Positions 7,962 through 37,261 of a DNA stretch of 46,903 nucleotides are shown here, one piece after another. A program made the position numbers and the translations under genes. The stretch is from Candidatus Saccharimonadota bacterium (GTDB taxonomy: Bacteria; Patescibacteriota; Saccharimonadia; Saccharimonadales; Saccharimonadaceae). The DNA lies in assembly GCA_017514905.1 (NCBI GenBank), contig JAFWIK010000021.1, forward strand, positions 1-46,903. Direction: 5' to 3'. How positions within the stretch are numbered: position 1 is the stretch's first letter; every line of letters begins with the position of its first letter. The notes beneath the pieces were generated by a model. That model searched no databases. It saw only the letters and a program-made list of their open reading frames with translations, and was not told where the DNA came from.

Positions 7962-10160
7962 TCATCCCTTAAACACTGGCAAATCATCTGGAAACGGATC
8001 AAAATCCGATTCACCAAAATCACCCGAAAAATCCGAAGAACTTGAAAAATCCATAAACCCATCCCCATTTTCATCTTTATAACCCATCGAACCGACATCA
8101 TACCCTTTGGAGCCAGTACTATATCCCGCCGAACCATATGGATTATATCCTAACTCCGTCAAAAATCGCGACGGCATATTATAGTTTCTCGACCCGTATG
8201 AATATCGCGATGCTGCATAGGTCAAAAAGAGTTTTTTCATTGCGCGTGTCATTCCTACATATGCTAAACGTCTTTCTTCTTCCATTTCTTCTTCTTTTTC
8301 AGCCGCTCTGCCGCCTGGAAAAAGTCCCTCTTCCATCCCTACAATAAAAACTACCGGGAACTCCAAACCTTTCGCTGCATGCAAAGTCATTAGTGTTACG
8401 GAATTTTTCACAGTCGCCTCATCCGCCGACGACATTAAACTCGCATCCGCCAAAAAATCCTCCAAGGTATTATATTCCGCTGCTTGTGCGCCGAGAACTT
8501 CCAAGTTTCGCATCCGCTCTTCACTGCTTGGTGTGCCATCATCCGTAAGAGTTTTAAAATCAAAATACTCCACTACGCGCCTCACAATTTCGCCCGGATT
8601 ATCGCCTTCTTTTACAGACTTCAAAAATCCAATCAATTTTAATAATCCATTTTTTGCCTTCGCCGCATTCAAAACCTCCACAAGATCCGGATCAAGCAAA
8701 GGTTTTTCTCCCGAAATCGCATCTAGTCCCGCCAAAACCTTCGCAAGCGATACCTCTCCCACGCCAGAAAGCACGTTATTAAACACCCGCGCGAGGCTCA
8801 CTTTGTCCCGCTGATTTATGACCAAACGCAAAATCGCTAGCACGTCTTTTACTTCCTTCCGATCATAAAATCTCACTCCACCCACAATTTTATACGGAAT
8901 CTGCATATTCATAAACGCTTTTTCAAACGCATACGACTGTGCATTCGTCCGATAAAGCACCGCAAAATCCGCTAAATCCGGAAATTCGCTCTTCAAATTC
9001 AGAATCTTAAGCGCCACAAAGTTCGCCTCCGCATTTTCATCCTGCAAAGATTCTATGTCTACAGGCTCGCCTTTATCTGCATCAGTAAACAAAGTTTTTT
9101 CTGTTCGCATTTTATTCTCATTAATTATTTTCTGCGATGCCGCCAAAATATTCCCCGTCGAACGATAATTTTGCTCCAGTTTAATCACCTTCGCTCCAGG
9201 AAAATCTTTTTCAAAATTCAGAATATTAGTAAAATCCGCTCCCCGCCACGAATAAATTGATTGCCAATCATCTCCCACTACACAAATATTTCGTTTTTCG
9301 TTCACTAGAAGTCGCACAATATTATATTGCACAACATTCGTATCCTGATATTCATCAATCAAAATATGTTCAAATCTTTCTTGCCACTTTTTTCGAATCT
9401 CCGGAAAGTTTTTCAGAAGCATCAGCTCATATAATAATAAATCGTCAAAATCAAGCGCCGCCGCTTTCTTTTTTTCTTCCTCATAACGGTAAAAAATCTT
9501 CGCAATTTTTTTCTGATTCGGATAAAAAGCCTCTGCTTCATATTCTTCTGGACCTTTACCTTGATTCTTTTCGTTCGAGATAATCGCCTGAATCGATTTC
9601 GGTTTCAAACTTTTATCGTCCGTAAATTTCAACTCCTTCATAATCCGCCGCACTAAAGAAACCTGATCATCCATATCATAAATCACAAAATTCCGATCTA
9701 AGTCTAACGCCTCTGCCTCTTGCCGCAAAATTTTCACCGCAATCCCATGGAACGTCCCCATATACGGCATAAATGACCGCGGCGGCTCAGAAGCTACCTC
9801 CGCAAGAGAAGCATCATTTATGTCTCGACTCGGGGTATTCCGGAGCGCGGCAGCGCGAGGATTAGCGCCGGCCGCCCGTGGCGACGGGCCGGCCGGACGC
9901 GACCCCGAGTGAGATATAAATGATGCATTTTGCGAAAGCAGCTTCCACAGCCTCTCCCGCATTTCATTTGCCGCCTTATTGGTAAACGTTACAGCTAGAA
10001 TATTCGATGGTTTCACACCATGCGCAATTATATTTGCAATTCTATAAGTCAAAGTCCGCGTTTTCCCTGATCCTGCCCCCGCTAGAATCAACACCGGCCC
10101 TTCCAAACATTCCGCCGCCTCTTTTTGCGCCTCATTTAGACCATCAGTTATCTCATTCAT
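7962..10160 (-). CDS. UvrD/PcrA-type superfamily 1 DNA helicase with in-frame palindromic insertion
   Basis: 3'-5' SF1A helicase acting in excision repair and replication-fork maintenance. All core motifs are visible: Q-motif region (LNEAQKEAAE), Walker A AGAGSGKT (about 30-37), Ia (AVTFTNKAANEMRERL), II (ILIDEYQDTN), III (GDDWQSIYSWRGAD), V (TLHAAKGLEFPVVF) and VI (AYVGMTRA). Residues about 73-123, between MRERLWKLL and the GTFHG motif, are a roughly 50-residue insert read as [17 protein letters not shown], where PcrA has about 10 residues. This is copy 2 of the palindromic element, in opposite orientation to copy 1. The C-terminal tail is a Gly/Tyr/Ser- then Asp/Phe-rich low-complexity segment. 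The start at 10160 is chosen over 10163 because TATAAT (10172-10167) lies exactly 6 nt before it. Confidence 0.96.
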   Translation of the reverse strand: MNEITDGLNEAQKEAAECLEGPVLILAGAGSGKTRTLTYRIANIIAHGVKPSNILAVTFTNKAANEMRERLWKLLSQNASFISHSGSRPAGPSPRAAGANPRAAALRNTPSRDINDASLAEVASEPPRSFMPYMGTFHGIAVKILRQEAEALDLDRNFVIYDMDDQVSLVRRIMKELKFTDDKSLKPKSIQAIISNEKNQGKGPEEYEAEAFYPNQKKIAKIFYRYEEEKKKAAALDFDDLLLYELMLLKNFPEIRKKWQERFEHILIDEYQDTNVVQYNIVRLLVNEKRNICVVGDDWQSIYSWRGADFTNILNFEKDFPGAKVIKLEQNYRSTGNILAASQKIINENKMRTEKTLFTDADKGEPVDIESLQDENAEANFVALKILNLKSEFPDLADFAVLYRTNAQSYAFEKAFMNMQIPYKIVGGVRFYDRKEVKDVLAILRLVINQRDKVSLARVFNNVLSGVGEVSLAKVLAGLDAISGEKPLLDPDLVEVLNAAKAKNGLLKLIGFLKSVKEGDNPGEIVRRVVEYFDFKTLTDDGTPSSEERMRNLEVLGAQAAEYNTLEDFLADASLMSSADEATVKNSVTLMTLHAAKGLEFPVVFIVGMEEGLFPGGRAAEKEEEMEEERRLAYVGMTRAMKKLFLTYAASRYSYGSRNYNMPSRFLTELGYNPYGSAGYSTGSKGYDVGSMGYKDENGDGFMDFSSSSDFSGDFGESDFDPFPDDLPVFKG
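9791..9944. repeat. Palindromic protein-coding insertion element, copy 2 (in uvrD)
   Basis: The core at 9841-9900 is the reverse complement of the copy 1 core with one substitution (GAGGATTAGC against GAGAATTAGC). Locus-specific arms flank it: GCATCATTTATGTCTC (9821-9836) plus ACTCGGGGT on the left, and ACCCCGAGTGAGATATAAATG (with a short gap) plus TGCATTTTGCG on the right. Outer AAGCT/AGCTT ends are at 9791 and 9944. The element is oriented opposite to copies 1 and 3 relative to its gene. Confidence 0.9.
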
Positions 10161-14368: not shown

Positions 14369-14845
14369 ATGGCCGCAAGAAGAAAAAACAAATCTCTTGG
14401 TTATTATCAATATCAACGTGTTCGTTCCGTTTATCAATCGAATCCAGCCAAAAAGATCATTCTTGTCGTAATACTGCTAGTTACCATTACGGTTATTATC
14501 GCCTCTATACTCAGCACCACGCTTACTACTGAAAATCAAGTTAAATCTACTATTGATAATATTGCTTCCGATTACTACGAAAACTATTTTTACGAAACTC
14601 TTTATTCGTCACCTGAATTCGACCAAAATAACCCAGGTGCCGCTCTAGAAAAATATCAAACCAAAGGTCTTTCCTCCCTCGCTCTACGCGATTTATTACT
14701 ATATGACAACCAAAAGCACTACGATCAATACGATTATCTCACTCAGCACTGTGACGTAAACCAAACCTACATTCTCTTTTTTCCTGACCCGCCATACGAT
14801 AATTCATCCTATCACACCAAAATCACCTATTCTTGCAATTTTTGA
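14369..14845 (+). CDS. Small membrane-anchored protein, unknown function
   Basis: 158 residues. The N-terminus is basic (MAARRKNKSLGYYQYQRVR), followed by one transmembrane helix (IILVVILLVTITVIIASIL) and an acidic, Tyr/Asp/Asn-rich extracytoplasmic domain with two late cysteines (HCDVN and SCNF). No family is recognised. Overlapping AT-rich -10-like boxes (TATGATAAT, TATATAAT) lie directly upstream, and pyk diverges on the other side. The topology (short basic cytoplasmic end, single helix, external globular part) resembles the 235-aa protein at 19816-20523, but I see no clear sequence match. The start is the only ATG before the helix. Confidence 0.75.
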   Translation: MAARRKNKSLGYYQYQRVRSVYQSNPAKKIILVVILLVTITVIIASILSTTLTTENQVKSTIDNIASDYYENYFYETLYSSPEFDQNNPGAALEKYQTKGLSSLALRDLLLYDNQKHYDQYDYLTQHCDVNQTYILFFPDPPYDNSSYHTKITYSCNF

Positions 14846-15191: not shown

Positions 15192-16781
15192 ATGCTAAAG
15201 AAAATAAACAATCATCAAAAAACCAAAATAAATGGTTTTAAAAATAGTAAATCTATTTATATTACAGTTGGTTTAACTAGCCTTACTATCCTTTCTGGCC
15301 TAGTCTTATCCAGCTCAACAGTCTCTGCAGATGACGTAGTAGATAACGTAGCTATCACAGTACCAGTATCCTGTACTATGAGTGGTACTGGTATGAATAC
15401 TCATACTAAAGAAGTAGTAAATGGTACCTATGAAGAAAACATTGGTACTACTACTATGAAAGTACTATGTAATGATAACTCAGGCTTTTCTATTTATGCT
15501 ACAGGCTTTACTAATGAAACTATAGCAGAAACAAATAGCAATAAACTAGTAGGAACAAATGCATCAGGAAACGCTACTATAGATACTGGTATAGCTGAGT
15601 CTGGTAATACTTCTAACTGGGCTATGAAACTAGCTACTAATTCTCAAGCTACTTATCCAATTACTATTACGAGTGATGCTGAAGGACCATTCTCTTCTTA
15701 TCATACAGTACCTAATGAATATACTAAAGTAGCCACTAGACTAGCTGGTACTGATACTGGTACTAATGCTGAAGGAGCCACACTTACTTCTACTTACGCT
15801 GCTTACATTTCTAAGACTCAAGCAGCAGATACTTATACTGGTAAAGTTAAATATACTTTAGTGCATCCGAATGATGCTCCAGCTCCTACTCCACCTATAA
15901 CTCCTTCTTGTCCTACTCCAGTACCAAACCTCACATATATGCAAGATCTAAATAGCTCTAATAAAGCCTCCATCCTAGCTAATATGACAGAAGATGCACA
16001 ATACTTCCTAAAAGATAAACGTGATGAAACACCTTACTGTGTAGCCAAGCTAAAAGACGGTAATATCTGGATGACCGAAAGCCTAGATCTAGCCGGCGGC
16101 ACTGCTCTCAGCGCAGAGGATACAGATGTTGCCAGTGCATATATCAGCAGCTTTTCTACCAGCAATAATCTCACCAAATCTGGTAACACCATAGTTCTCC
16201 CACCATCTGCCATTCAAACTGAAAATAATACAAGCCTTACCGACGATACTCAGTTCAGTATCGATAACTACTCCTATGTATTCAACTCGCATTCAAAAGA
16301 AACCTGGAATGGAGACGTGTATGTACCAGCTTATTCCTATTACTCATGGGATGCAGCTACACTTGGTTCTGGTCGTTCTATCAGCACGGAAAACACTGAC
16401 GCTCCTTACAGTATCTGCCCCAAAGGATGGAGACTCCCTACATCAGGAGCTGACCATGATAATGGTTGGAAACGTGGCGACTTTTATAAACTAGCCACTG
16501 CCTATGGCATTGATCTAGAAAACAGCTCTACTAAAAATTACGATAACAGAGATTATTTAAATAAAATTGGCCCCGGCACTCCACCAAACTATTTGCTTGC
16601 TTCTAACTATTCCTACGGTTTCTTTGAATATGAAGGTGAGTTCGGGACTTATTGGAGTTCTACATCTAGTTCCAGCACTGATTATGCTATATCTATGTCG
16701 CTCGACTCTAATATCAACGTAGCCGAAGAATATTATAATCGTTTCTATGGCCAATCAATTCGCTGTCTAGCTAAAAATTAG
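15192..16781 (+). CDS. Secreted surface protein with FISUMP-type C-terminal domain (paralogue 1)
   Basis: 529 residues. The N-terminal hydrophobic segment (SIYITVGLTSLTILSGLVL) with a following VSADD acts as signal peptide or anchor. Residues about 45-230 form a module shared with the proteins at 30732 and 35510: CTMSGTGMNTHT, NGTYEENIGTTTMKVLCND, GFSIYATGFT, NWAMKLATNS, YAAYISKTQAADTYTGKVKYTLVHP. A proline linker follows. The C-terminal half has the Fibrobacter-succinogenes-major-paralogue (FISUMP) layout: VAKLKDGNIWMTESL, ICPKGWRLPTSG, YWSSTSSS and the terminal IRCLAKN. Probably a secreted or surface adhesin; binding partner unknown. TACAAT promoter and a weak AAGG ribosome-binding site lie upstream. 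Base composition is AT-rich with long ACT/GCT runs, unlike housekeeping genes. Confidence 0.85.
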   Translation: MLKKINNHQKTKINGFKNSKSIYITVGLTSLTILSGLVLSSSTVSADDVVDNVAITVPVSCTMSGTGMNTHTKEVVNGTYEENIGTTTMKVLCNDNSGFSIYATGFTNETIAETNSNKLVGTNASGNATIDTGIAESGNTSNWAMKLATNSQATYPITITSDAEGPFSSYHTVPNEYTKVATRLAGTDTGTNAEGATLTSTYAAYISKTQAADTYTGKVKYTLVHPNDAPAPTPPITPSCPTPVPNLTYMQDLNSSNKASILANMTEDAQYFLKDKRDETPYCVAKLKDGNIWMTESLDLAGGTALSAEDTDVASAYISSFSTSNNLTKSGNTIVLPPSAIQTENNTSLTDDTQFSIDNYSYVFNSHSKETWNGDVYVPAYSYYSWDAATLGSGRSISTENTDAPYSICPKGWRLPTSGADHDNGWKRGDFYKLATAYGIDLENSSTKNYDNRDYLNKIGPGTPPNYLLASNYSYGFFEYEGEFGTYWSSTSSSSTDYAISMSLDSNINVAEEYYNRFYGQSIRCLAKN

Positions 16782-16842: not shown

Positions 16843-19761
16843 CTACTCCTCTTCCCAAATAGCATATAATGTATGGTCATTATTAGTAGCTAATTGATCC
16901 GTTTCGACAACAAATCCGACGATATCCCCCCTTTCAAATGCATCTTGGCCAGCATTATTATAAAAAACATTATCAACTAAATCATACAAACCAGCCACAC
17001 CATCACTCTTCCTATAACAAGGGACTAGATCCCTTACTAATTCTCCGTTACTCCAGAACTTCAAATAATACATTTTCCCTTTTAGGTAATTACTTCCTTC
17101 CCTATGTCCAAATCCTAATCGATGATTAAATGATGTAGTTGCACGGGTCAGCGTACTCGCTGGTTCATCGTTTATATAGTTTAATAAATTTGCACCAGTA
17201 TTGTCATGAATAATCGTATAAGGAGTGTTTATAGATAATTTCTTCAAGGTGTTCGATCCAGCTCCCGGAAGTCTGACTTTATAATTACCGGAGTTGTCTA
17301 CCCAAATTTCGTTAGAAGTGTCTGTTGCTCCGAGCGAGCCAAACATATTATTATAATTGTAATGCTGTGTTATATCAAACTTAAATTCCATTTTCCAGTT
17401 TTGATCCTTCCATAACGCATAGTTGGTATCAATATATTGCGTCCCAGTACCTTTAATATAATCTAGCTCACGGTACTCAGCTGGAAGATTACGAAAATCA
17501 GATTCCTGAACATTCAAGCTCCAACCTTTAAACCTATATCCTTCTCTCATCGGCGTTGGTAAAGCTCCATATGTTGAATTATAATCAACCATTTTACTAT
17601 GCGTATCAACAGTCCCACCATTTGCGTCAAATGTTATAATTGGACTTTTAGCCCACTGGGCATATAATGTATGATCCTTATTAGTAACTACTTGCGAATC
17701 ACTATACACATAATGCACCCCACTACCAATATCAAAAACACCACTACCGTTATTCGGATAAAACGCGTCGCCAACCGTATCACATAAGCCAATTGTATTA
17801 TCACTTTTTCTATAACAAGGAAGCAAATTTCTAGCAACATTTCCCGTACTTTTGTTAGTTATTTTGGCATAGTACACTTTTCCATCAAGATTAGCAGTAC
17901 TACCCCGCTTGCCAATCCATAATGTAGTTGGTGAAGCTATGCCATAACCAGATTCCAACAAATCTCCATCTAAGACTATTGAATTATTCTCACCATTATA
18001 CACCAAATGGTGATCCCCTGTCGTCCAACTTCCATAGCCTGTCCAACCTTTATGTCCATCATGTCCAAAGACATACTTGTTGCTGTATGCTGCAGTATAG
18101 TAGTAATCAGAACCACTACTTGTGCCAAATAAAAATTCATCATTAGTATAAGATTCATAGTCAAATTTAATTTCTGTTGTATGATTGGTCGGAATTAACC
18201 CCACGTCTACGTAATTTCCACTTCTAAATTTTATATAATCAGTAATTTCATAATCATCTAGATTAAAACTCCATCCTAGAAATGTATATCCTTCTCTCGT
18301 TGGTGTCGGTAAAGTTCCATACGTTGAATCATAATTAACCATTTTGCTATGTGTACCAACAGTCCCACCATTTGCATCAAATGTTATAACTGGTTTTTTG
18401 TTCCACATTGCGTATAATGTATGATTCTCGCTGCTGATACTTTTTGTAGTTGATTTTATGTATTTCGCACCAGCAATAAATGTATTATTACCACTATTTT
18501 CGTAAAATTCCCCGTTAATAGTATCATATAGACCTATTACATCGTCGCTCTTTCTATAGCACGGGATCATGTTTCGGACTATGTTCCCCGTCGATTTATC
18601 TGTTATCCTTACATAGTATATTTTACCTGCAAAATTAGCACTATCACCTCTTTTTCCGATTAGTAGATTCGTAGGCGATGATATTTCGTAACCTGACTCT
18701 AGCATTTGACCATCCAAAATTATCGAATTATTCTCGCCATTATATATTAAGTGGTGGTTTCCTGTCGTCCAAGTTCCATAGCCAGTCCAGCTTTTATTTC
18801 CGTCGTGTCCAAAAACATATTGATTATTATATGCAGCAGTATAGTAATACCTAGATCCACTAGACGTTCCTAGCAAAAATTCATCCTCAGTGTATGTTTC
18901 ATAATCGAATTCTATCTCAGTTGTATGATTAGTCGGAATTATCCCAGTATCAATAAAACTACCTGCCCTAAATTGAATATAGTCAACATAGACATATGAA
19001 TCCTCATTATGATTCCATCCTGCAAATTCATATCCTTCGCGACTTGTAGTTGGTAATTCTCCGTAATCTTGCCCCGGAACAACTTGCTTCTCGGTAAATG
19101 ATGGAGTAGTACCACCATTTGCATCGAAAGTCACGATAATCCCTGGATCAGAAATCAAATAGTAAGTAATCACTCCGTCATTCGCCAAAGTGTAACTACC
19201 GGCAGCCAAATCGGATGACGTCGAAGCTCCATAGTAAACCGTAATAACATCACCCTCAGCTGATGAAGCAGAGTCTTTGTCATATATCATCGTCTGTTCT
19301 TCGTCCACGGCAAAGAAAGTACTAGACTCCCTTGTAGTGTTAGCATTCATACTAATGCCCCAAGTATTCATCTTGTCGTCACCTATAATCGTAGTAGGAG
19401 CATCCTTCGTGCCAGAGGTTGGTGCTATGTAGTTATCATCGTTACTAGAATCACCATTTAAATATAAATTTCGATCCGTTGAGCCATCAACATACAAAGC
19501 ATAGCCATTGAGACAGTCCGTGTTAACCGTTACATTGTCAGCAACTACTCCACTATCGTTTGTCGTTACGTTTAGCTCTACGGTGCCATCAATAGACAAA
19601 GATGCAGAACAATTGGCATACACATTATTACCAAATATCAAGTCGTAAAATAAACTAAAAAATATCAGAAAACACCAAAAAGCTGAGTATGTCAACATAA
19701 AGCCGACTACCCTTCCAGCTACCCCCGCCTCGCAGCAAGTTAGTTTAGCTCCACTTTTCAT
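16843..19761 (-). CDS. Large secreted protein with LamG-like and InlB-type repeats
   Basis: 972 residues. The N-terminal hydrophobic segment (AFWCFLIFFSLFYDLIFG) ends before NVYANCSAS, a likely signal peptide. A module with NCSASLSIDGTVELNVTTNDS and WGISMNANT follows. Then come three tandem units, each made of an InlB/Listeria-Bacteroides repeat (VTFDANGG, REGYEFAGW or REGYTFLGW, HTLYAMW) and a LamG-like jelly-roll ending in PCYRKSDDVIGLYDTINGEF. Units 1 and 2 are close copies (TNHTTEIEFDYE, GENNSIILDG); unit 3 keeps only the ends. No C-terminal anchor is visible; it ends YAIWEEE. Likely an adhesin or glycan binder. Convergent with paralogue 1. Units 1 and 2 could recombine and change length. 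Confidence 0.85.
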   Translation of the reverse strand: MKSGAKLTCCEAGVAGRVVGFMLTYSAFWCFLIFFSLFYDLIFGNNVYANCSASLSIDGTVELNVTTNDSGVVADNVTVNTDCLNGYALYVDGSTDRNLYLNGDSSNDDNYIAPTSGTKDAPTTIIGDDKMNTWGISMNANTTRESSTFFAVDEEQTMIYDKDSASSAEGDVITVYYGASTSSDLAAGSYTLANDGVITYYLISDPGIIVTFDANGGTTPSFTEKQVVPGQDYGELPTTSREGYEFAGWNHNEDSYVYVDYIQFRAGSFIDTGIIPTNHTTEIEFDYETYTEDEFLLGTSSGSRYYYTAAYNNQYVFGHDGNKSWTGYGTWTTGNHHLIYNGENNSIILDGQMLESGYEISSPTNLLIGKRGDSANFAGKIYYVRITDKSTGNIVRNMIPCYRKSDDVIGLYDTINGEFYENSGNNTFIAGAKYIKSTTKSISSENHTLYAMWNKKPVITFDANGGTVGTHSKMVNYDSTYGTLPTPTREGYTFLGWSFNLDDYEITDYIKFRSGNYVDVGLIPTNHTTEIKFDYESYTNDEFLFGTSSGSDYYYTAAYSNKYVFGHDGHKGWTGYGSWTTGDHHLVYNGENNSIVLDGDLLESGYGIASPTTLWIGKRGSTANLDGKVYYAKITNKSTGNVARNLLPCYRKSDNTIGLCDTVGDAFYPNNGSGVFDIGSGVHYVYSDSQVVTNKDHTLYAQWAKSPIITFDANGGTVDTHSKMVDYNSTYGALPTPMREGYRFKGWSLNVQESDFRNLPAEYRELDYIKGTGTQYIDTNYALWKDQNWKMEFKFDITQHYNYNNMFGSLGATDTSNEIWVDNSGNYKVRLPGAGSNTLKKLSINTPYTIIHDNTGANLLNYINDEPASTLTRATTSFNHRLGFGHREGSNYLKGKMYYLKFWSNGELVRDLVPCYRKSDGVAGLYDLVDNVFYNNAGQDAFERGDIVGFVVETDQLATNNDHTLYAIWEEE

Positions 19762-19815: not shown

Positions 19816-20523
19816 TTATTCTTCTTCGCAAATTGCGTCTGTGCTACTGACTTCAAAATTAATTGTATATTCCGAAAGATCGAGCGGTGTGCTGTCTAAA
19901 TAGTCTGTCGCTAGTTTTTTATATTGTTCCGGATTGCATGCCGACACAGTTACATCAATTGTTCTTTTTGATTCGTTACCATCCATAAAAACGAGAGGAG
20001 CCGCATCCTCAATTGACGAATCCACCACATAAGGTAAATACAAATCCAAAGAATAAGTATTATTATAGGTCCCCTGACACACTGTTTCTGGATATTTCAT
20101 CAATTCCTGTGGCGGGCAATCCACTATTACTTCATATACTACGCTTTTGTCTTTTGACCAGCCTGTCGAAACCGTATAAGTCTGCTTCAAAGAATCAATG
20201 TCTACAATGAAGTTTACACTTATCGAACCATCTTCATTTTCACTTTCCTCATATGTCCCTTCACGAATCGTCACATCCTTAATGTTATTTCGGTCTACAT
20301 TTGGCACGTTCGATTCAATCAACTGCCAAATATTTTCTTCAATAAAATCTTCGGCATCGCCTGGCATTTCTGAGTCATTCGCATCGTCAATCGTAGCATG
20401 TGGTTTATCTGCCAATGCAAACTGCAAAACCGAAGCTATTATCGCAATTACTAAAATCTGAGCTATCACAACCAAAACAATTTTTTGATTTTTTGTAAGA
20501 TTTCCTAGCAATGTCTTAAACAT
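19816..20523 (-). CDS. Membrane-anchored protein, unknown function, last gene of lytic operon
   Basis: 235 residues. A short N-terminus leads into one transmembrane helix (IVLVVIAQILVIAIIASVL), then an acidic extracytoplasmic domain rich in Asp/Glu with cysteines (VDCPPQELMKYPETVC, SACNPEQ, DAICEEE). I recognise no family. The ATG lies 12 nt after the hydrolase stop, with an AAAGGGG ribosome-binding site, so it is the third gene of an operon with the PEGA-domain protein and the multidomain hydrolase. It could be an accessory or anchoring partner; this is context only. Confidence 0.8.
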   Translation of the reverse strand: MFKTLLGNLTKNQKIVLVVIAQILVIAIIASVLQFALADKPHATIDDANDSEMPGDAEDFIEENIWQLIESNVPNVDRNNIKDVTIREGTYEESENEDGSISVNFIVDIDSLKQTYTVSTGWSKDKSVVYEVIVDCPPQELMKYPETVCQGTYNNTYSLDLYLPYVVDSSIEDAAPLVFMDGNESKRTIDVTVSACNPEQYKKLATDYLDSTPLDLSEYTINFEVSSTDAICEEE

Positions 20524-20535
20524 TCATATCCCCTT

Positions 20536-22920
20536 TCAATCCTTCAAGGCTTCCGTTTTAATCACTTTATCCGTATAAGCATAATTCCAAGTCGAAATTT
20601 CGCTAAACGACTTCTCTACCGCATGTGGAGCATAATACATTGCATTGCGCCCAAACGAGCAAGATGCTTCGCCAATCACCACTTTCTTCTTCTTTTCGTC
20701 CACACCCAAAATCACTCCAGTATGGCCTGCCGCTGACGGACCAGCATGACTAAAGATCGCATATGGTCTCGGCTTCGAACCGGTATCAAGTCCCAGGTCA
20801 CCTGCCACCTTTTTAGCCACACCCACCCCGTTTGTAGTACTTCGCCACGGACCAGCCGTTGTATAAGCATTAATGAACCATTGCGAAAACGCCACACAGT
20901 TATTCATAATCCCAAATGGACAATTCGTATCATGGATTAACCCACCCAAAATCTCCTTATCACCTGGATGCTTCTTATAATATGTACCCATCGCCGCATC
21001 ATGATATTTCTTTACAAAAGTCTGAGCCTCCGCCAAAGTTAGTCCGCCCTCCTTCAACCCCACCAAAGAACCATCCTCACCATCAGTCCCATCGCCACAT
21101 ACATCACATTCCGAACTACCTCCACCACTTTGATTTTCTTTGTTCCGGTAAACCTTTAAATTAGAGAAATAACCACTAGTAATATTACTAGTATCCTTAG
21201 TTATGCCAAAATAACCGTCTCCTGCACCATTTGGATTCGATGCCTGCACTACATAACCCTGACCTCCAGCACCCTCCGCATATATTCCTACATGATTAAA
21301 ATTAGGGCGCCCAAATGCAATCACGTCACCAGATTGATACTCCTTCGTAGACTTCGGATTATCCATCTTGACTTCTTCCCATTTGTCGCTACCAGCAAGA
21401 TATCTCTGTATTGCAGAAGCATTACCAGCCGGAATATCATCATCCACACCAGCATATCTCACTACCGTGTGCACAAACCTATCACAGCTCATTCCACCAG
21501 CGTAGTTCGTGCTCTGGTCTTGTTTAGCCACTGGTAAAGTGTTGAAGAATTTAGTAAATTTATCCGTTGCCCTCTTGTAATATATACTCTTGTCTGTTCC
21601 ATAAGGCCAAGCTAATTCTAACGCGCTCGCACCAATATCATGATTATTTTGTCCAGAAGTTACAAGCCCTGTACCAGAATCTACAGTACCATTATTAGCT
21701 CCCGTCGCCCGAATGACAAAACAGTCGCCTTTGCACCATGTTTTCCTAGTACCTAAGTGACCCCATTTTTTATTATAACTCGCCTCAGCAACTATCAAGT
21801 CACCATTCTCTTCGACTGCAATAAAGGTATGTTGGTAGCTACCATAAAAAGTAATAATATCACCGGACTTTAATTTCGATTTTTCACCGTCCCAATCTAT
21901 CACATCCCACTTTTCTGGGTGGTCCTTTGCATATTCAACCTGTTTTCGTCCATTCAAATTTCCCGGAAAACTCTCATCATAACCAGAATATTGTACCACC
22001 ACACTTACGAAATAGCCGCAATCCGGATGATCCAAATACTTCTTTAAACCAACTTTCTTCGCAGCGCTTTCAAATGCACTTGTTGGCTCACCACCAGGAT
22101 ACTTATAATCTGACTCTTTAGCCGAAAGCGGCCAAGCCAAATCGATTGCTGTTTGAGCAATATTATTATTATTCTGTCCTAAACAAGCCGATGATGCACC
22201 CGTGGAAGATGTTATTGCTTTACCACTATATTTGTTAAAAGCATCGTGCGCCTTTTTCTTGCGAAATTCATCACTATAAACACCAGCCCTTTCCACTCTT
22301 GACCTAAACCAAACCGTAGCATCATCAATTTGATTCTTTTTATAATATTCAGAATAACCTTGATCTAGCTCATTTTTCAAAAACTGAATTTCAAGTTGAA
22401 AGATTTTATTCGCTACATCATCCCCCACTTTTTTAATAAAATCATCGCCAGTTATCTGAGCATTACTATCGTCTTCAAAATATTGAATCAAACTCGGATC
22501 TTGTTCTTTAATAAAATTCAGCAAATTTACCCGTCTACCAAAAGACCATTGAATGAAACCTAGACCTACCTGCGCACTTCTATCATACAAATTTCCACTT
22601 TGCCCCACTTCTCGTCGCACCGGATTATAATTACCATCCTCCTGTCCAATATTCCCCATTATGCCAGCGGCTTGCTCATCCGTCAAAAAGCTAATTAACC
22701 CACTCCAAAGTTTTTCCTCCGCCGTATCACCCGCAATCGTAATATCACCACCAAGTACTGACGAAGTACTAGTACAAGGGTCAAAGAACAAAATGTCATT
22801 TTGCGAATATTGTTCCTCCTCTTCTTCGCTCAAAGCCAACGTCGCATTAATGCAAAAACCTGAAAGAGCTAGAATAGCTAGTATTATAGTTGCATATATA
22901 ATTTTATTCTGTCTTTTCAT
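20536..22920 (-). CDS. Secreted multidomain peptidoglycan hydrolase (phage-type lysozyme plus three Cys/His amidase-like domains)
   Basis: 794 residues. The N-terminal signal/anchor is IIYATIILAILALSGFCI. Residues about 65-180 match the phage tail lysozyme fold (WSGLISFLTDEQAAGIMGNIGQE, GLGFIQWSFGRR). Three NlpC/P60- or CHAP-like modules follow: the first with DCGYFVSVVVQYSGY and HTFIAVEENG, the second with SCDRFVHTVVRYAG and FNHVGIYAEG, the third with NNCVAFSQWF and HTGVILGVD. Each has a candidate Cys and His nucleophile pair. These would cut glycan strands and peptide stems. Its ATG overlaps the upstream PEGA gene's stop (TAATG), so translation is probably coupled. The protein could act on its own wall, but a host-directed role is plausible for an epibiont. 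Confidence 0.88.
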   Translation of the reverse strand: MKRQNKIIYATIILAILALSGFCINATLALSEEEEEQYSQNDILFFDPCTSTSSVLGGDITIAGDTAEEKLWSGLISFLTDEQAAGIMGNIGQEDGNYNPVRREVGQSGNLYDRSAQVGLGFIQWSFGRRVNLLNFIKEQDPSLIQYFEDDSNAQITGDDFIKKVGDDVANKIFQLEIQFLKNELDQGYSEYYKKNQIDDATVWFRSRVERAGVYSDEFRKKKAHDAFNKYSGKAITSSTGASSACLGQNNNNIAQTAIDLAWPLSAKESDYKYPGGEPTSAFESAAKKVGLKKYLDHPDCGYFVSVVVQYSGYDESFPGNLNGRKQVEYAKDHPEKWDVIDWDGEKSKLKSGDIITFYGSYQHTFIAVEENGDLIVAEASYNKKWGHLGTRKTWCKGDCFVIRATGANNGTVDSGTGLVTSGQNNHDIGASALELAWPYGTDKSIYYKRATDKFTKFFNTLPVAKQDQSTNYAGGMSCDRFVHTVVRYAGVDDDIPAGNASAIQRYLAGSDKWEEVKMDNPKSTKEYQSGDVIAFGRPNFNHVGIYAEGAGGQGYVVQASNPNGAGDGYFGITKDTSNITSGYFSNLKVYRNKENQSGGGSSECDVCGDGTDGEDGSLVGLKEGGLTLAEAQTFVKKYHDAAMGTYYKKHPGDKEILGGLIHDTNCPFGIMNNCVAFSQWFINAYTTAGPWRSTTNGVGVAKKVAGDLGLDTGSKPRPYAIFSHAGPSAAGHTGVILGVDEKKKKVVIGEASCSFGRNAMYYAPHAVEKSFSEISTWNYAYTDKVIKTEALKD

Positions 22921-23561
22921 TAGTCAGGCTCCTCATCAAACGTTATTTCATAATCATCTGGATTATACCCAGCCTCACGTATTAGTTCTAAAGCAATTTC
23001 ACGGTTTTTTTCGCCTCCATATACCACCAAACAAATTGCTTTTTCCATGCAAGTGTCTTCACTTTGTTCAATATACACGCCAATCGGTTTTTCTGGGTCC
23101 GAACGGTCATAATATTCAAGAGGTAACTTATTCAAAATACTTGCCATAGCTTCAAATTCATCAATAAAGGCATGCACGCTCTCATCATCCGTCGCCTGTG
23201 CAAGAACCGAAATGTCATCCGGGTTTTTTAAATAGTAATCAAAACCACCATTTTCGTCCAAAAGATAATCCTTTATCCGCTTAAACTCCCCCTCATATAA
23301 TTCAAAATCGAATTCCTTAGTTTGCATCCCCTCCATCGAAATCTTTGCATGGTAGTCGCCTGGAATCAAATTATACGACTCAAAATTACTATAAGATCTA
23401 CCATTTAATTCGATCACAGCCTCACTTGGTGCAACATATATATTAACCGTAGCAGTTTTTGCACTATGTATTACCAAAACTAGTATTGTTACCAAAATCG
23501 CCACTACATTCAAAAAAACTATCAAGCTAACTATTTTATGTCGAGCTACAAAACTAAACAT
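22920..23561 (-). CDS. Membrane-anchored PEGA-domain protein
   Basis: 213 residues. An N-terminal transmembrane helix (IVSLIVFLNVVAILVTILVLVI) is followed by a PEGA-type beta domain (VNIYVAPSEAVIELNGRSY, LIPGDYHAKISMEGM). A helical region and a late cysteine pair (SEDTCMEKAICLVVYGG) follow. PEGA domains are surface-layer or extracytoplasmic folds. It is the first gene of the three-gene operon: TATAAT lies 9 nt before its ATG, and the stop overlaps the next start by one base. LigA ends just upstream on the same strand, 29 bp away. Confidence 0.82.
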   Translation of the reverse strand: MFSFVARHKIVSLIVFLNVVAILVTILVLVIHSAKTATVNIYVAPSEAVIELNGRSYSNFESYNLIPGDYHAKISMEGMQTKEFDFELYEGEFKRIKDYLLDENGGFDYYLKNPDDISVLAQATDDESVHAFIDEFEAMASILNKLPLEYYDRSDPEKPIGVYIEQSEDTCMEKAICLVVYGGEKNREIALELIREAGYNPDDYEITFDEEPD

Positions 23562-23590: not shown

Positions 23591-25714
<2,124 letters not shown>

Positions 25715-30677: not shown

Positions 30678-30731
30678 AAAAATTATAATAAGCTCTTGCT
30701 TTTTATTATTTATGTTATAATCATAAGTATC

Positions 30732-32204
30732 ATGGCTCATACAAATAGACATATTAAAAAATTTGTTAGTGATCAAGCTAATAATAATTTATTCTTATTT
30801 TTAGTTTTAACTCTAGTTGCCTTTACTTCTGTCTCTACCTTGATACTTTCTTCAACTTTTGTGTCTGCTGATGAATCTTCAGCTAACGCAACGGTAAATG
30901 TACCAGAAGCTTGTACTATGACTGGCAGTGGTATGAATACCCATACCGCAGAAATACCAAATGGTACTTATAGAGCAGATATTGGTGCTACTACTATTAA
31001 AATAGTCTGTAATGATCCTAACGGCTTTTCTATTTATGCTATCGGATTTACTGGAGACGAATATACTGGTACTAATCATACTAAACTAGTAGGAACCACT
31101 GCATCAGGAAACGCTACAATAGCTACTGGTACTGCTACTAGTGGAAGTACTTCTAACTGGGCTATGAAACTAGCTACAAATTCCTCTGCTACTTATCCTA
31201 TTACGCTCACAAATGGTTATGGTTCCTATAGTAACGTTCCTGATACTTATACTAAAGTAGCTCAGCGTACTTCTGGTACTGATACTGGAACCTCTGCTAC
31301 TGGAGCAGAACTAACTACTACTTATGCTGCCTTCATTTCTAGTGCTCAAGTTGCTGATACTTATGTAGGTAAAGTTAAATATACTATGGTGCATCCGTAT
31401 GATGCGGAAGCACCAGAGCCAACTTATGATATGCAAAATCTATCTATTGATAAATGCCCAGCAGCTTCACCCATTAATGTTGTAGACGTCCGCGACGGTG
31501 AAGTCTACAAAGCTCAAAGACTCGCTGATGGCAAATGCTGGCTTCTTGATAACTTAAGATTAGATCCTACTGCTGTTTCTTTGACTGACCTTCAAGGTAA
31601 TACTAATGCGTCCAATCAGACTCTCACTTACTTCAAGAATGGTGGTGGCGCTAGCCCATATCCAGCTAATGGAGTTAATACTACTTGGGCTAGTTCTTCT
31701 GATAATAAATATGATGAGCCAAAAGTAGTAACTACCTATAAAGACACTACTACTACAAGCTATGGTGCTGGTTCTGGTAAGATTGGTGTCTATTATAACA
31801 ACTGTGCTGCCTCAGCTGGATCAAGATGTAGTGAAGGCTACAGCTCTACCGCCGATGAGGATATCTGCCCAGCTGGTTGGAGAATGCCTACCGGTGGTTT
31901 TAGTGGTGAATATGCAGCACTTTGCAAAGCGTATAATAGCGGTATTGATTGTGCCTACTCTTATAATTATACTTCTATGGATGCTACATCTACTTCAAGT
32001 CTTCAATATAATCTTTCTACGCCTCTCTCTGGCTCCTTCTACTCTGGTTCGGCGAAAGAGCAAGACATACAGGGTTCCTTTTGGTCTTCTAGTCCAGAAG
32101 CTGCTAATTACAGGCACAATCTAGATGTAAAAGATGATGGCCTCAGGCCAAGCTATAACAAACCTAGTCAATGGGGTGTCTCCGTTCGTTGTGTGCTTAA
32201 GTAG
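30732..32204 (+). CDS. Secreted surface protein with FISUMP-type C-terminal domain (paralogue 2)
   Basis: 490 residues from the ATG at 30732, chosen because a TATAAT box ends 10 nt upstream; the longer in-frame start at 30696 overlaps the promoter. The hydrophobic N-terminal segment (NNLFLFLVLTLVAFTSVSTLIL) ends near VSADESS. The shared N-terminal module follows: CTMTGSGMNTHTAEIPNGTY, GATTIKIVCNDPNGFSIYAIGFTG, WAMKLATNSSATYPITL and ADTYVGKVKYTMVHP. The C-terminal FISUMP part contains VYKAQRLADGKCWLLDNLRL, DICPAGWRMPTGG, GSFWSSSPE and the terminal VRCVLK. Probably a surface adhesin. The gene lies inside a 2-kb stretch bounded by two copies of a CACGTG palindrome. Confidence 0.86.
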   Translation: MAHTNRHIKKFVSDQANNNLFLFLVLTLVAFTSVSTLILSSTFVSADESSANATVNVPEACTMTGSGMNTHTAEIPNGTYRADIGATTIKIVCNDPNGFSIYAIGFTGDEYTGTNHTKLVGTTASGNATIATGTATSGSTSNWAMKLATNSSATYPITLTNGYGSYSNVPDTYTKVAQRTSGTDTGTSATGAELTTTYAAFISSAQVADTYVGKVKYTMVHPYDAEAPEPTYDMQNLSIDKCPAASPINVVDVRDGEVYKAQRLADGKCWLLDNLRLDPTAVSLTDLQGNTNASNQTLTYFKNGGGASPYPANGVNTTWASSSDNKYDEPKVVTTYKDTTTTSYGAGSGKIGVYYNNCAASAGSRCSEGYSSTADEDICPAGWRMPTGGFSGEYAALCKAYNSGIDCAYSYNYTSMDATSTSSLQYNLSTPLSGSFYSGSAKEQDIQGSFWSSSPEAANYRHNLDVKDDGLRPSYNKPSQWGVSVRCVLK

Positions 32205-35496: not shown

Positions 35497-35509
35497 AATG
35501 ATAAGCATT

Positions 35510-37261
35510 ATGGGAAACAAGATATTAAAGACAGACGGTATAATTGCCACTACAATAGTACTTTCTAGCTTGGCCGTCTTTTCTGGTTTCGTTCTATCTT
35601 CTGAAATAGCTTCTGCTGACTCTTCTTCATCAAATGCCGCAATCACCGTACCATTAGCCTGTACTATGAACGGTAGTGGTATGAATAATCACAGCGCAGA
35701 AATTTCAAATGGTACTTACCAAAGTGAAATTGGCACTACGACAATCAAAGTAGTCTGTAATGATCCAAGTGGTTTTTCCATTTATGCTGTGGGCTACACC
35801 GGAGATTCCTTGACTGATACTAACCATACTAAGCTAGTCGGGGCCACCAGCAATGTGACTATTGCTACCGGCACCGCTACTACCGCCGGAAATCCTGACG
35901 TTTCTAACTGGGCAATGAAATTAGCTGCAAATAGCAGCGATGCATATCCAGTTACTCTACAAAATGGCTATGGTTCATACAGCATTGTTCCTGATACTTA
36001 TGTTAAAGTAGCTTCTAGAACTTCCAACACTGATAGCGGAGTAAATGCAATTGGCTCCACCATAACAACTTCATACGCCGCCTACATAGCCAAAAATCAA
36101 ATTGCCGACACTTATAATGGCAAAGTCAAATACACCTTAGTTCATCCTCATAACGAAACGCCTCAACAGCCACAGCCATCACAAAGCAATATTATCTCTT
36201 ACTACCCGAACGCTAATTTAACAACCGGTACTATGAGCGGACAATGGATTAACGTTGGCGATACTCCAGCCCTTATAGCTAGTAATTTTGCTAGAACTGG
36301 TTACGGCTTTGCTGGTTGGAACGACGCATACGATTATAGTGGCACTTTCTATGGCATGAACGAGACCGTTAATGTCACCTCCGAAATGGAAACTAATGGC
36401 CTTAGCCTATATGCCGTCTGGGTGGAATCCGAAGGATACCTGCAAGACTCCAGCACAGTAGCAAGTGTTTGTAACAGGCTTACAGCCGCCTCAGCATCGA
36501 CTGCCAATACTCTCAGCAGCGTCTCTGCTCTCACTGACCGCCGCGATGGCAATACGTATGCCATCGCCAAACTAGCCGATGGTAAATGTTGGATGATTGA
36601 AAATCTCAGATTATCTAATTCTACCGAACTAACCACTAGTAATACCCATAACCCTCTCACTATTAATAATATAGTTTCTATCCTAAATGACGATGGCACC
36701 ACCACTAACCATCTTTCTGCCACTAGTAGTAACTGGTGTCTTGAAGAAACCAGCGCCTGCGTAGACCAATCCAAATTGAATACTGACAACACTGCACTTT
36801 ATCTATCTAACACCACCGGCTCTAAAACTGGCAACGTATATAGCTATGGCAACTACTATAACTGGTATTCCGCTACTGCCGGACATGGTATCAGATATAC
36901 ATCAGCTAGTTTCACCTCACCCGGCGACATCTGCCCATCTGGCTGGCGTCTACCTACTGGTGGTTCATCAAATAGCGAAATCATCACAATCAATAATCTT
37001 GCAAATAGCGGTTCAACTACTACCAGCGCTGGGCTGAGAACCTTCCCTAACAATTTCGCCTTTGCTGGAATGGTTAGTACAAATTCCGGGAATATCTCAG
37101 ATCGTAGCTGGTATGGTAACTATTGGACAGCAACAGACAGTTATGGCGGAGCCTATGGGCTCAAAATCGCCGATGGCGGTGGCGGAGCCAGCCCCACCGA
37201 TCTCCCATGGAAATACACTGGCCATAGCGTTCGCTGCATCGCTGACCTTCAATATAATTAA
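35510..37261 (+). CDS. Secreted surface protein with InlB repeat and FISUMP-type domain (paralogue 3)
   Basis: 583 residues from the chosen ATG. The hydrophobic segment (IIATTIVLSSLAVFSGFVL) precedes SEIASADSSS. The shared N-terminal module follows (CTMNGSGMNNHSAEISNGTY, TIKVVCNDPSGFSIYAVGYTG, NWAMKLAANSSDAYPVTL, ADTYNGKVKYTLVHP). Unlike paralogues 1 and 2 it then has one Listeria-Bacteroides/InlB repeat (IISYYPNANLTTGTM, TGYGFAGWNDAY, SLYAVW). The C-terminal FISUMP half contains YAIAKLADGKCWMIENLRL, DICPSGWRLPTGGSS, GNYWTATDS and SVRCIAD. It has a strong promoter and is probably a highly expressed surface adhesin. Convergent with the YolD-like gene, 15 bp away. Confidence 0.87.
   Translation: MGNKILKTDGIIATTIVLSSLAVFSGFVLSSEIASADSSSSNAAITVPLACTMNGSGMNNHSAEISNGTYQSEIGTTTIKVVCNDPSGFSIYAVGYTGDSLTDTNHTKLVGATSNVTIATGTATTAGNPDVSNWAMKLAANSSDAYPVTLQNGYGSYSIVPDTYVKVASRTSNTDSGVNAIGSTITTSYAAYIAKNQIADTYNGKVKYTLVHPHNETPQQPQPSQSNIISYYPNANLTTGTMSGQWINVGDTPALIASNFARTGYGFAGWNDAYDYSGTFYGMNETVNVTSEMETNGLSLYAVWVESEGYLQDSSTVASVCNRLTAASASTANTLSSVSALTDRRDGNTYAIAKLADGKCWMIENLRLSNSTELTTSNTHNPLTINNIVSILNDDGTTTNHLSATSSNWCLEETSACVDQSKLNTDNTALYLSNTTGSKTGNVYSYGNYYNWYSATAGHGIRYTSASFTSPGDICPSGWRLPTGGSSNSEIITINNLANSGSTTTSAGLRTFPNNFAFAGMVSTNSGNISDRSWYGNYWTATDSYGGAYGLKIADGGGGASPTDLPWKYTGHSVRCIADLQYN

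Follow-up and report, generated by a model that had tools for sequence, protein, structure and literature searches.

It is not yet understood how the wall of the host is breached or bridged by epibiotic Patescibacteria; their type IV secretion system (T4SS) is essential, yet it has no known substrate or wall-opening step. Two studies report that the T4SS genes SEML1_0006-0019 are essential for epibiotic growth (PMC10633639) and that the 'peptidase and lysozyme homologues' encoded just after virB4 are essential (PMC12102498). We analysed a stretch of 46,903 nucleotides (contig JAFWIK010000021.1 of assembly GCA_017514905.1, Candidatus Saccharimonadota; 'the window') that contains a three-gene set, a testable candidate for the tool that opens a cell wall in these tiny parasitic bacteria. 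We think that this operon is probably the wall-hydrolase module of the Saccharibacterial T4SS in a copy detached from the chromosomal secretion cluster, that is, an anchor-docked enzyme for VirB1/PrgK-like wall opening in the service of the T4SS.

A three-gene operon beside ligA

The features of the locus are as follows.

22920..23561, minus strand: N_pega, 213 aa; N-terminal TM, PEGA/transthyretin-like domain and a C-terminal alpha/beta domain common with C_anch
20536..22920, minus strand: LYS, 794 aa; four-domain secreted peptidoglycan hydrolase
20524-20535, minus strand: 12-nt spacer from the LYS stop to the C_anch start; GGGG ~6 nt 5' of the C_anch ATG, ribosome-binding-site-like
19816..20523, minus strand: C_anch, 235 aa; TM helix 11-37, cystatin/NTF2-like domain ~47-146 and the C-terminal alpha/beta domain common with N_pega
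23591..25705, minus strand: ligA, 29 bp upstream of N_pega; a conserved neighbour, given as context outside the module

The original prediction of a three-gene operon with a TAATG overlap and 12-nt spacing is confirmed in its coordinates, strand, overlap and spacer; in the overlap, one base is common to the N_pega stop codon (22922-22920) and the LYS start codon (22920-22918). Because only 29 bp separate N_pega from ligA, which precedes it on the same strand, the transcription unit may exceed three genes; a scan for promoters and terminators gave counts like those in shuffled sequences and no usable signal. Of 11 orthologous loci, 9 have the operon after ligA; in the other two (L100, L101) LYS occurs without adjacent called anchors and without ligA. 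The three-gene unit is under purifying selection (dN/dS 0.13-0.15 versus the nearest orthologue); given this selection and the recurrent ligA adjacency, we rejected a chance arrangement of the three genes.

The chromosomal neighbours of the operon are ligA, htpX and lemA. The housekeeping character of the ligA neighbourhood would suit an autolysin that serves the epibiont's own growth, division or separation, and multi-domain autolysins are known in free-living monoderms. We regard this explanation as quite unlikely: in the same genome, ftsE/ftsX-like genes are immediately followed by one for a CHAP protein (in our naming, a PcsB-like division candidate), and both the module content and the location of the unit vary among close relatives.

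Domains and catalytic residues of LYS

The four domains of LYS are listed here.

22222..22725, minus strand: lysozyme domain, residues 66-233; PF18013, catalytic Glu94, fold of the phi29 tail lysozyme 3csq
21694..22173, minus strand: NlpC/P60-like domain 1, residues 250-409; Cys301/His364, fold match MepS 8xud
21121..21648, minus strand: NlpC/P60-like domain 2, residues 425-600; Cys479/His543, fold match Tse1 4f4m and 8er5
20554..21066, minus strand: CHAP domain, residues 619-789; PF05257, Cys675/His733, fold match 8ej5

The two outer domains are Pfam members: Phage_lysozyme2 (PF18013) matches residues 79-231 with an E of 3.6e-14 (53.5 bits, cut-off 28.2), and CHAP (PF05257) matches residues 673-750 with an E of 1.4e-10 (42 bits, cut-off 26), Cys and His both being present. 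The two middle Cys/His modules give sub-threshold matches only, no NlpC/P60 match exceeding the Pfam cut-off in the window's LYS; we call them NlpC/P60-like rather than scored members since 7 of 16 relatives do have the Pfam match and the fold agrees. LYS found no sequence match in the PDB at E <= 1, and its best match in PHROGs (E 0.00057) is annotated as of unknown function.

The structure models were compared with known folds: the lysozyme domain aligns with 3csq (Z 12.9, rmsd 2.5, 133 residues aligned, 23% identity), NlpC/P60-like domain 1 with MepS 8xud (Z 9.1, rmsd 3.2, 115 aligned), NlpC/P60-like domain 2 with both Tse1 4f4m (Z 10.3, rmsd 3.2, 129 aligned) and 8er5 (Z 10.3, rmsd 2.8, 112 aligned), and the CHAP domain with 8ej5 (Z 10.7, rmsd 3.1, 127 aligned). 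The modelled folds agree with four wall-hydrolase domains, and the catalytic residues, far from missing, are conserved: Glu94 in 17/17, C301 in 16/17 and H364 in 17/17, C479 and H543 in 10/10, and C675 and H733 in 11/11. This agrees with the predicted four-domain hydrolase (a phage-type lysozyme plus three Cys/His modules). Sequence comparison and models support LYS as a putative secreted wall hydrolase that combines a single glycosidase with three papain-fold Cys/His domains, the predicted catalytic residues of all of them being conserved.

PF18013 is the phage-tail lysozyme family, and 18 viral contigs code for something weakly related to the lysozyme domain, as a remnant of a prophage lysis cassette might lead one to expect. 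The viral matches are, however, weak and short (29-52% over short stretches, E 7e-7 to 3e-4), and the neighbours are chromosomal (ligA, htpX, lemA), with ligA adjacency conserved in most of the orthologous loci; on these grounds we rejected a prophage origin, which we hold to be extremely improbable.

A tag shared by enzymes with different lytic domains

Directly after the signal peptide, LYS carries a short segment that recurs in its relatives.

22771..22809, minus strand: N-terminal tag YSQNDILFFDPCT, LYS residues 38-50, 13 residues

Its surroundings (residues 22-58) have pLDDT <50 in the model. The tag is common to LYS-family enzymes, whichever lytic domain comes next. A tag score >= 12 was obtained for 78/90 context-selected proteins (leave-one-out) versus 0/1311 other ORFs, a count that is partly circular in that the lysozyme profile used (residues 1-240) contained the tag. 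With a tag-free lysozyme profile, 66/87 proteins are tagged, and 14 of the 21 untagged ones are found in loci L143 and L145-L157; with selection by adjacency to anchors, 70/110 are tagged, 20 of those without a lysozyme core, and many of the 40 untagged proteins come from adjoining housekeeping genes, for example ligA and dnaJ-like genes. A stricter first text pattern recovered 40/123 lysozyme-profile matches and 0/1311 others. In a few members of the family the tag is degenerate (L104 and L126, score 3.0) or absent.

The PF18013-type lysozyme core is missing from 24/90 tagged proteins. Among 72 of the 85 complete tagged proteins (the 13 left out are mostly close orthologues), we found PF18013 in 53, CHAP in 16, C39 in 11, GDSL in 11, NlpC/P60 in 10 and glucosaminidase in 9. 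That the tag is shared whatever lytic domain follows suggests, at the level of sequence, a docking role.

Two membrane anchors

N_pega and C_anch are two single-pass anchors that are kept in relatives, in line with the proposal that the partner proteins are dedicated anchors. The PEGA assignment of N_pega held in part: the window's protein has no Pfam match to PEGA (PF08308), and among its relatives at E <= 0.1 PEGA is found in 8/18 and CarboxypepD_reg in 11/18. The C-terminal domains of the two anchors are related (hhalign probability 96%, E 3.7e-9, one comparison). Profiles built from each in five rounds match the other's proteins, so we used them as 'anchor' labels only; this cross-matching is partly explained by the shared C-terminal domain, and the TM helix may contribute. 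A 15-row C_anch profile has matches in 8/192 genomes of the phylum, four of them outside the family (E 5e-4 to 8e-4, short parts), and gauges close relatives only, being silent in a genome (G001) that has the other type of anchor on its T4SS side.

Domain 1 of C_anch weakly resembles cystatin-fold proteins (chemerin, Z 5.5; a designed cystatin fold, Z 5.1). Cystatins are inhibitors of papain-fold peptidases, so the two partners, instead of docking LYS, might act as immunity proteins and restrain its Cys/His domains on the surface of the cell that makes it. All structural matches of this domain have Z <= 5.5, however, and Foldseek returned none for C_anch at E <= 1e-3 (a lack of clear matches that does not argue for a new fold); moreover, the retention of TM and shared C-terminal domains in both proteins fits scaffolding. 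We judge immunity very unlikely; docking is the role that fits best. A VirB8 identity was also considered for C_anch and is not established: CagV (Z 5.0) and TraM (Z 4.4) stand among many similar scores, no better than unrelated proteins in the list, and the best Foldseek E is 0.083.

The same family lies beside virB4 in relatives

In relatives, the same enzyme and anchor family follows immediately on virB4 within the chromosomal T4SS cluster, in the order VirB6/TrbL - PrgI - VirB4 (P-loop_TraG, E 3e-30) - (M23 protein) - LYS-type hydrolase - anchor. P-loop_TraG is above the cut-off in 53/60 genomes of the genus, an even draw that covers a subset of species. We scored linkage by pairing LYS matches with VirB4 matches; two genomes (G176, G187) were assigned as linked by hand, G169, G188 and G191 were set aside (the contig ends at the site), and G164 (M23 but no LYS after virB4) and G162 (unit nowhere found) were scored as unlinked. 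In the 50 scorable genomes, the unit is virB4-linked in 33 (7 with an additional unlinked one) and not found after virB4 in 17, of which 16 carry it elsewhere; 3 further genomes are indeterminate. This either/or pattern has a Fisher p of 7e-7 when kinship is ignored; a kinship-aware pair test is not significant (5 pairs, median p 0.25).

The window's own assembly (86.8% complete) has no VirB4 above the cut-off (best 16.6 bits), no match to a relative's VirB4 and no PrgI; at this completeness, the genes may lie in the part that the assembly lacks. LYS does combine a glycosidase and Cys/His peptidase on one exported chain, as expected of a VirB1-like hydrolase; encoding within a T4SS cluster is a property of the linked relatives, the window operon adjoining ligA. 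By sequence comparison, the window operon is a detached unit of a T4SS-associated hydrolase family.

Detachment from virB4 would also be compatible with LYS being a free-standing weapon: displayed by its anchors, it would lyse the host wall or weaken it, independently of the T4SS. The varied lytic modules of tagged relatives are as expected with differing host walls, and the T6SS amidase effector Tse1 is among the closest folds of the third LYS domain. We consider this unlikely, because most scorable genomes have the unit beside virB4, linked and detached arrangements substitute for each other, and membrane anchors point to local use.

A proposed role in wall opening

According to the T4SS-serving reading, LYS would be exported via Sec, and its tag would dock it on the membrane-anchored N_pega and C_anch or on the T4SS they work with. 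Peptidoglycan would next be cleaved at that site by the glycosidase and the three Cys/His peptidase/amidase domains, which matches the action of VirB1/PrgK/CwlT in monoderm conjugation; this would allow the envelope-spanning machine to form, and with it a contact site with the host bacterium. Both the service to the T4SS and the inclusion of the host wall among the substrates are our inferences; the host wall is a plausible target, since lytic modules are swapped between relatives and a separate PcsB-like candidate exists for self division.

A bolder version, which we offer tentatively and rather doubt, is that one tag docks interchangeable lytic enzymes (lysozyme, glucosaminidase, amidase, NlpC/P60, CHAP, C39, GDSL esterase) on paired PEGA/NTF2-like anchors at the T4SS; the cutting head could then be exchanged according to the host wall, while the anchors would replace VirB8, which is hardly found in the class. 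Such a family of tagged hydrolases, swappable and accompanied by anchors of their own, offers defined genes, catalytic residues and a motif of 13 residues that are testable in an existing genetic system.

Comparison with known systems

T4SS-linked hydrolases are already known and published; the consulted portions of the literature on Saccharibacterial T4SS hydrolases contain no description of a detached form, a tag or paired anchors. The original prediction did not foresee the T4SS association of the LYS family. The peptidase and lysozyme genes of Ca. Southlakia epibionticum ML1 (PMC12102498 and PMC10633639) have the same position as the linked LYS relatives and encode the same enzyme class; unlike the LYS operon, they are virB4-linked.

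The phi29 tail lysozyme (3csq) has a fold like that of the first LYS domain; unlike LYS, it is a virion tail protein without tag or anchors. In VirB8-like proteins (CagV, TraM of pIP501, TcpC), one TM precedes a domain that can be weakly aligned with C_anch; in contrast to them, C_anch, which has no sequence match to these proteins, carries a further domain in common with N_pega.

The VirB1-like hydrolases of monoderm (MPF_FATA) T4SS (PrgK of pCF10, TraG of pIP501, CwlT) are, like LYS, exported multi-domain enzymes with a glycosidase and Cys/His peptidase domain(s), and LYS relatives are likewise encoded beside VirB4/VirB6/PrgI. LYS differs in having a PF18013-type lysozyme in place of the SLT domain, three papain-fold domains and an N-terminal tag; it also comes with two dedicated anchors and is encoded away from virB4. 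Judged by analogy, its nearest functional counterpart is a VirB1/PrgK/CwlT-type hydrolase of a monoderm T4SS, not a free lytic weapon.

The operon and its surroundings

The operon lies downstream of ligA and consists of a secreted wall hydrolase (LYS) and two membrane anchors (N_pega and C_anch):

22920-23561, minus strand: N_pega, 213 aa
20536-22920, minus strand: LYS, 794 aa
19816-20523, minus strand: C_anch, 235 aa

The original prediction of a three-gene secreted lytic operon holds as regards its ORFs, TAATG overlap and 12-nt spacer. Purifying selection acts on each of the genes when compared with the nearest orthologue, L094 (dN/dS 0.14 for N_pega, 0.13 for LYS and 0.15 for C_anch; dS is 1.4-1.9, so the comparison is near saturation). 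ligA precedes the operon in 9 of 11 orthologous loci; in the two exceptions, L100 and L101, no anchor gene was called adjoining LYS. The assembly contains 700,269 bases in 26 contigs (86.8% complete), with the window as contig 7 (46,903 bases). Its source is probably a gut Saccharibacterium, because the lysozyme segment has its closest named relative, at 86% identity, in a sheep-jejunum genome of Candidatus Saccharibacteria.

Several other features were recorded in the window:

4746-4830, 9830-9908 and 25119-25202: GC-rich element of ~80 nt with inverted repeats
15192-16781, 30696-32204 and 35498-37261, plus strand: large secreted proteins with repeats in common at the DNA level (236 and 142 nt; repeats 64-78% alike)
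16843-19761, minus strand: 972-aa protein with Listeria-Bacteroides repeats, directly after C_anch (internal repeat of 181 nt)

The GC-rich element, which we liken to the Rickettsia palindromic elements, is located inside three unrelated genes (aminopeptidase-like, UvrD-like and ligA) whose reading frames stay open; 20 full or partial copies were detected in the assembly, and the long insert in ligA is absent from the three ligA orthologues aligned. The three large secreted proteins are a paralogous surface-protein family.

Domains and catalytic residues of LYS

By Pfam, LYS contains a lysozyme of the phage-tail type as well as a CHAP domain. The AlphaFold2 model (mean pLDDT 76.9, pTM 0.37, 17 sequences) contains four folded units that align, in order, with the phi29 tail lysozyme (Z 12.9), MepS (Z 9.1), Tse1 and NlpC/P60 (Z about 10.3), and CHAP endolysins (Z about 10). 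Missing catalytic residues had been named as grounds for rejecting the original prediction; this refutation fails because the residues taken to be catalytic by analogy with the families are conserved in the aligned rows having each domain: E94 of the lysozyme (17/17), C301 (16/17) and H364 (17/17) of the first NlpC/P60-like domain, C479 and H543 of the second (10/10), and C675 and H733 of CHAP (11/11). In one orthologue (L100 5878-8838), Ser occupies the position equivalent to C301; judged by this substitution, that copy of the domain is possibly inactive, that is, binding-only.

Two genome neighborhoods

With LYS as the query, 84 of 151 family genomes and 53 of 60 genus genomes yielded relatives. 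Their neighborhoods have two arrangements. In one, on the side of the type IV secretion system (T4SS), genes for TrbL/VirB6-like, PrgI and VirB4-like (P-loop_TraG) proteins are followed by the enzyme and an anchor gene, often with an intervening protein of about 1000 residues containing an M23 domain (Pfam); in the other, to which the window operon belongs, the unit stands alone as anchor-enzyme-anchor.

VirB4 scored over the cut-off in 53 of the 60 genus genomes, and the genes downstream of virB4 were inspected wherever no linked enzyme had turned up. The unit is linked, that is, downstream of virB4, in 33 genomes (7 with an extra unlinked unit), unlinked in 17 and indeterminate in 3; the enzyme was found elsewhere in 16 of the 17 unlinked genomes (Fisher p 7e-7, kinship not accounted for). 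Mapped on the VirB4 tree, the unlinked label must have changed 8 times, and 5 or more of these changes fall on branches with good support; the unit has thus been relocated repeatedly. In tree-independent pairs differing in both traits, the direction is nearly always that of replacement, with the 5 pairs too few for the test to reach significance (median p 0.25). We read this distribution as a single function retained as the location of the unit shifted.

The window's assembly yielded neither a VirB4 above the cut-off nor a PrgI, and nothing in it matched the VirB4 of a relative. Completeness is 59 to 90% in the 7 genus genomes that lack a VirB4 above the cut-off, so the simplest explanation would be an assembly gap. 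No PF18013 protein other than LYS was found in the assembly, which encodes two further CHAP proteins. One of these follows genes that resemble ftsE and ftsX by sequence; PcsB in other bacteria is encoded after ftsE/ftsX, and by this analogy that CHAP protein is the better candidate for self division.

A short N-terminal motif

The enzymes have a 13-residue motif (the tag) after the signal peptide; in LYS this is YSQNDILFFDPCT, residues 38-50, and the model has no confident fold there (pLDDT <50 for residues 22-58). Scored leave-one-out with a weight matrix, 78 of 90 non-identical proteins chosen by context reach >=12, a score attained by none of the 1311 remaining ORFs in these loci (best 11.1) and by none of 1800 shuffled N-termini (best 8.5). 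Because the first selecting profile included the tag, we recounted with a tag-free lysozyme profile: 66 of 87 proteins are tagged, and 21 are untagged, 14 of them in loci L143 and L145-L157 and 7 with a degenerate or absent tag (L104, L123, L126, L137, L138, L141 and L144). The PF18013-type lysozyme is absent, by the tag-free profile, from 24 of the 90 tagged proteins; a domain scan of 72 tagged proteins identified PF18013 (53), CHAP (16), C39 (11), GDSL (11), NlpC/P60 (10), glucosaminidase (9), amidase_2 (2), SLT (2) and VanY (1). The motif persists in front of differing enzymes; this suggests that the tag is a putative docking or sorting signal.

Six T4SS clusters (L037, L050, L090, L091, L093 and L126) contain two tagged enzymes, in tandem except in L126, where one is on the opposite strand; this suggests duplication and exchange of lytic modules.

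The anchors

N_pega contains a TM segment and a PEGA/transthyretin-like domain, the latter supported via relatives (PEGA in 8 of 18, CarboxypepD_reg in 11 of 18). The C_anch model (pLDDT 81.5, pTM 0.54) contains a TM helix and a cystatin/NTF2-like domain, and the C-terminal domains of the two anchors align with one another (probability 96%). The weak structure matches of C_anch include the VirB8-type proteins CagV (Z 5.0; 85 residues aligned at rmsd 3.1) and TraM (Z 4.4; 79 residues at rmsd 3.8), which stand among unrelated proteins of similar Z; Foldseek returned no match at E <= 1e-3. The model thus offers a VirB8-like C_anch as a lead only. The lead is of interest because PMC12102498 reports VirB8 as rare in classes other than ABY1 and detected no structural VirB8 homologue in S. 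epibionticum; however, a review lists VirB8-like components for the S. epibionticum T4SS (PMC12857230), so the published accounts differ on this point.

A 158-aa single-pass protein (14369-14845, plus strand) is recognized by the C_anch profile grown over five rounds (E 2e-7) and has no adjoining hydrolase; a similar protein is encoded at L074 6522-7019.

Comparison with known T4SS hydrolases

The patescibacterial T4SS is of the monoderm MPF_FATA class (PMC12102498), the S. epibionticum T4SS cluster is essential for epibiotic growth (PMC10633639), and the peptidase and lysozyme genes immediately 3' of its virB4 are reported as essential (PMC12102498); a T4SS-linked lysozyme was therefore already known. 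The tag, the anchor pair and detached units are unmentioned in the passages covered by a word-based literature search, which is blind to motifs. The window operon is a VirB1-like wall-hydrolase module that is tagged, anchor-paired and detached from the T4SS cluster; by analogy, it would function like VirB1/PrgK. VirB1-like hydrolases are expected in the T4SS cluster; the relatives of the window operon are encoded there, but the window operon is not.
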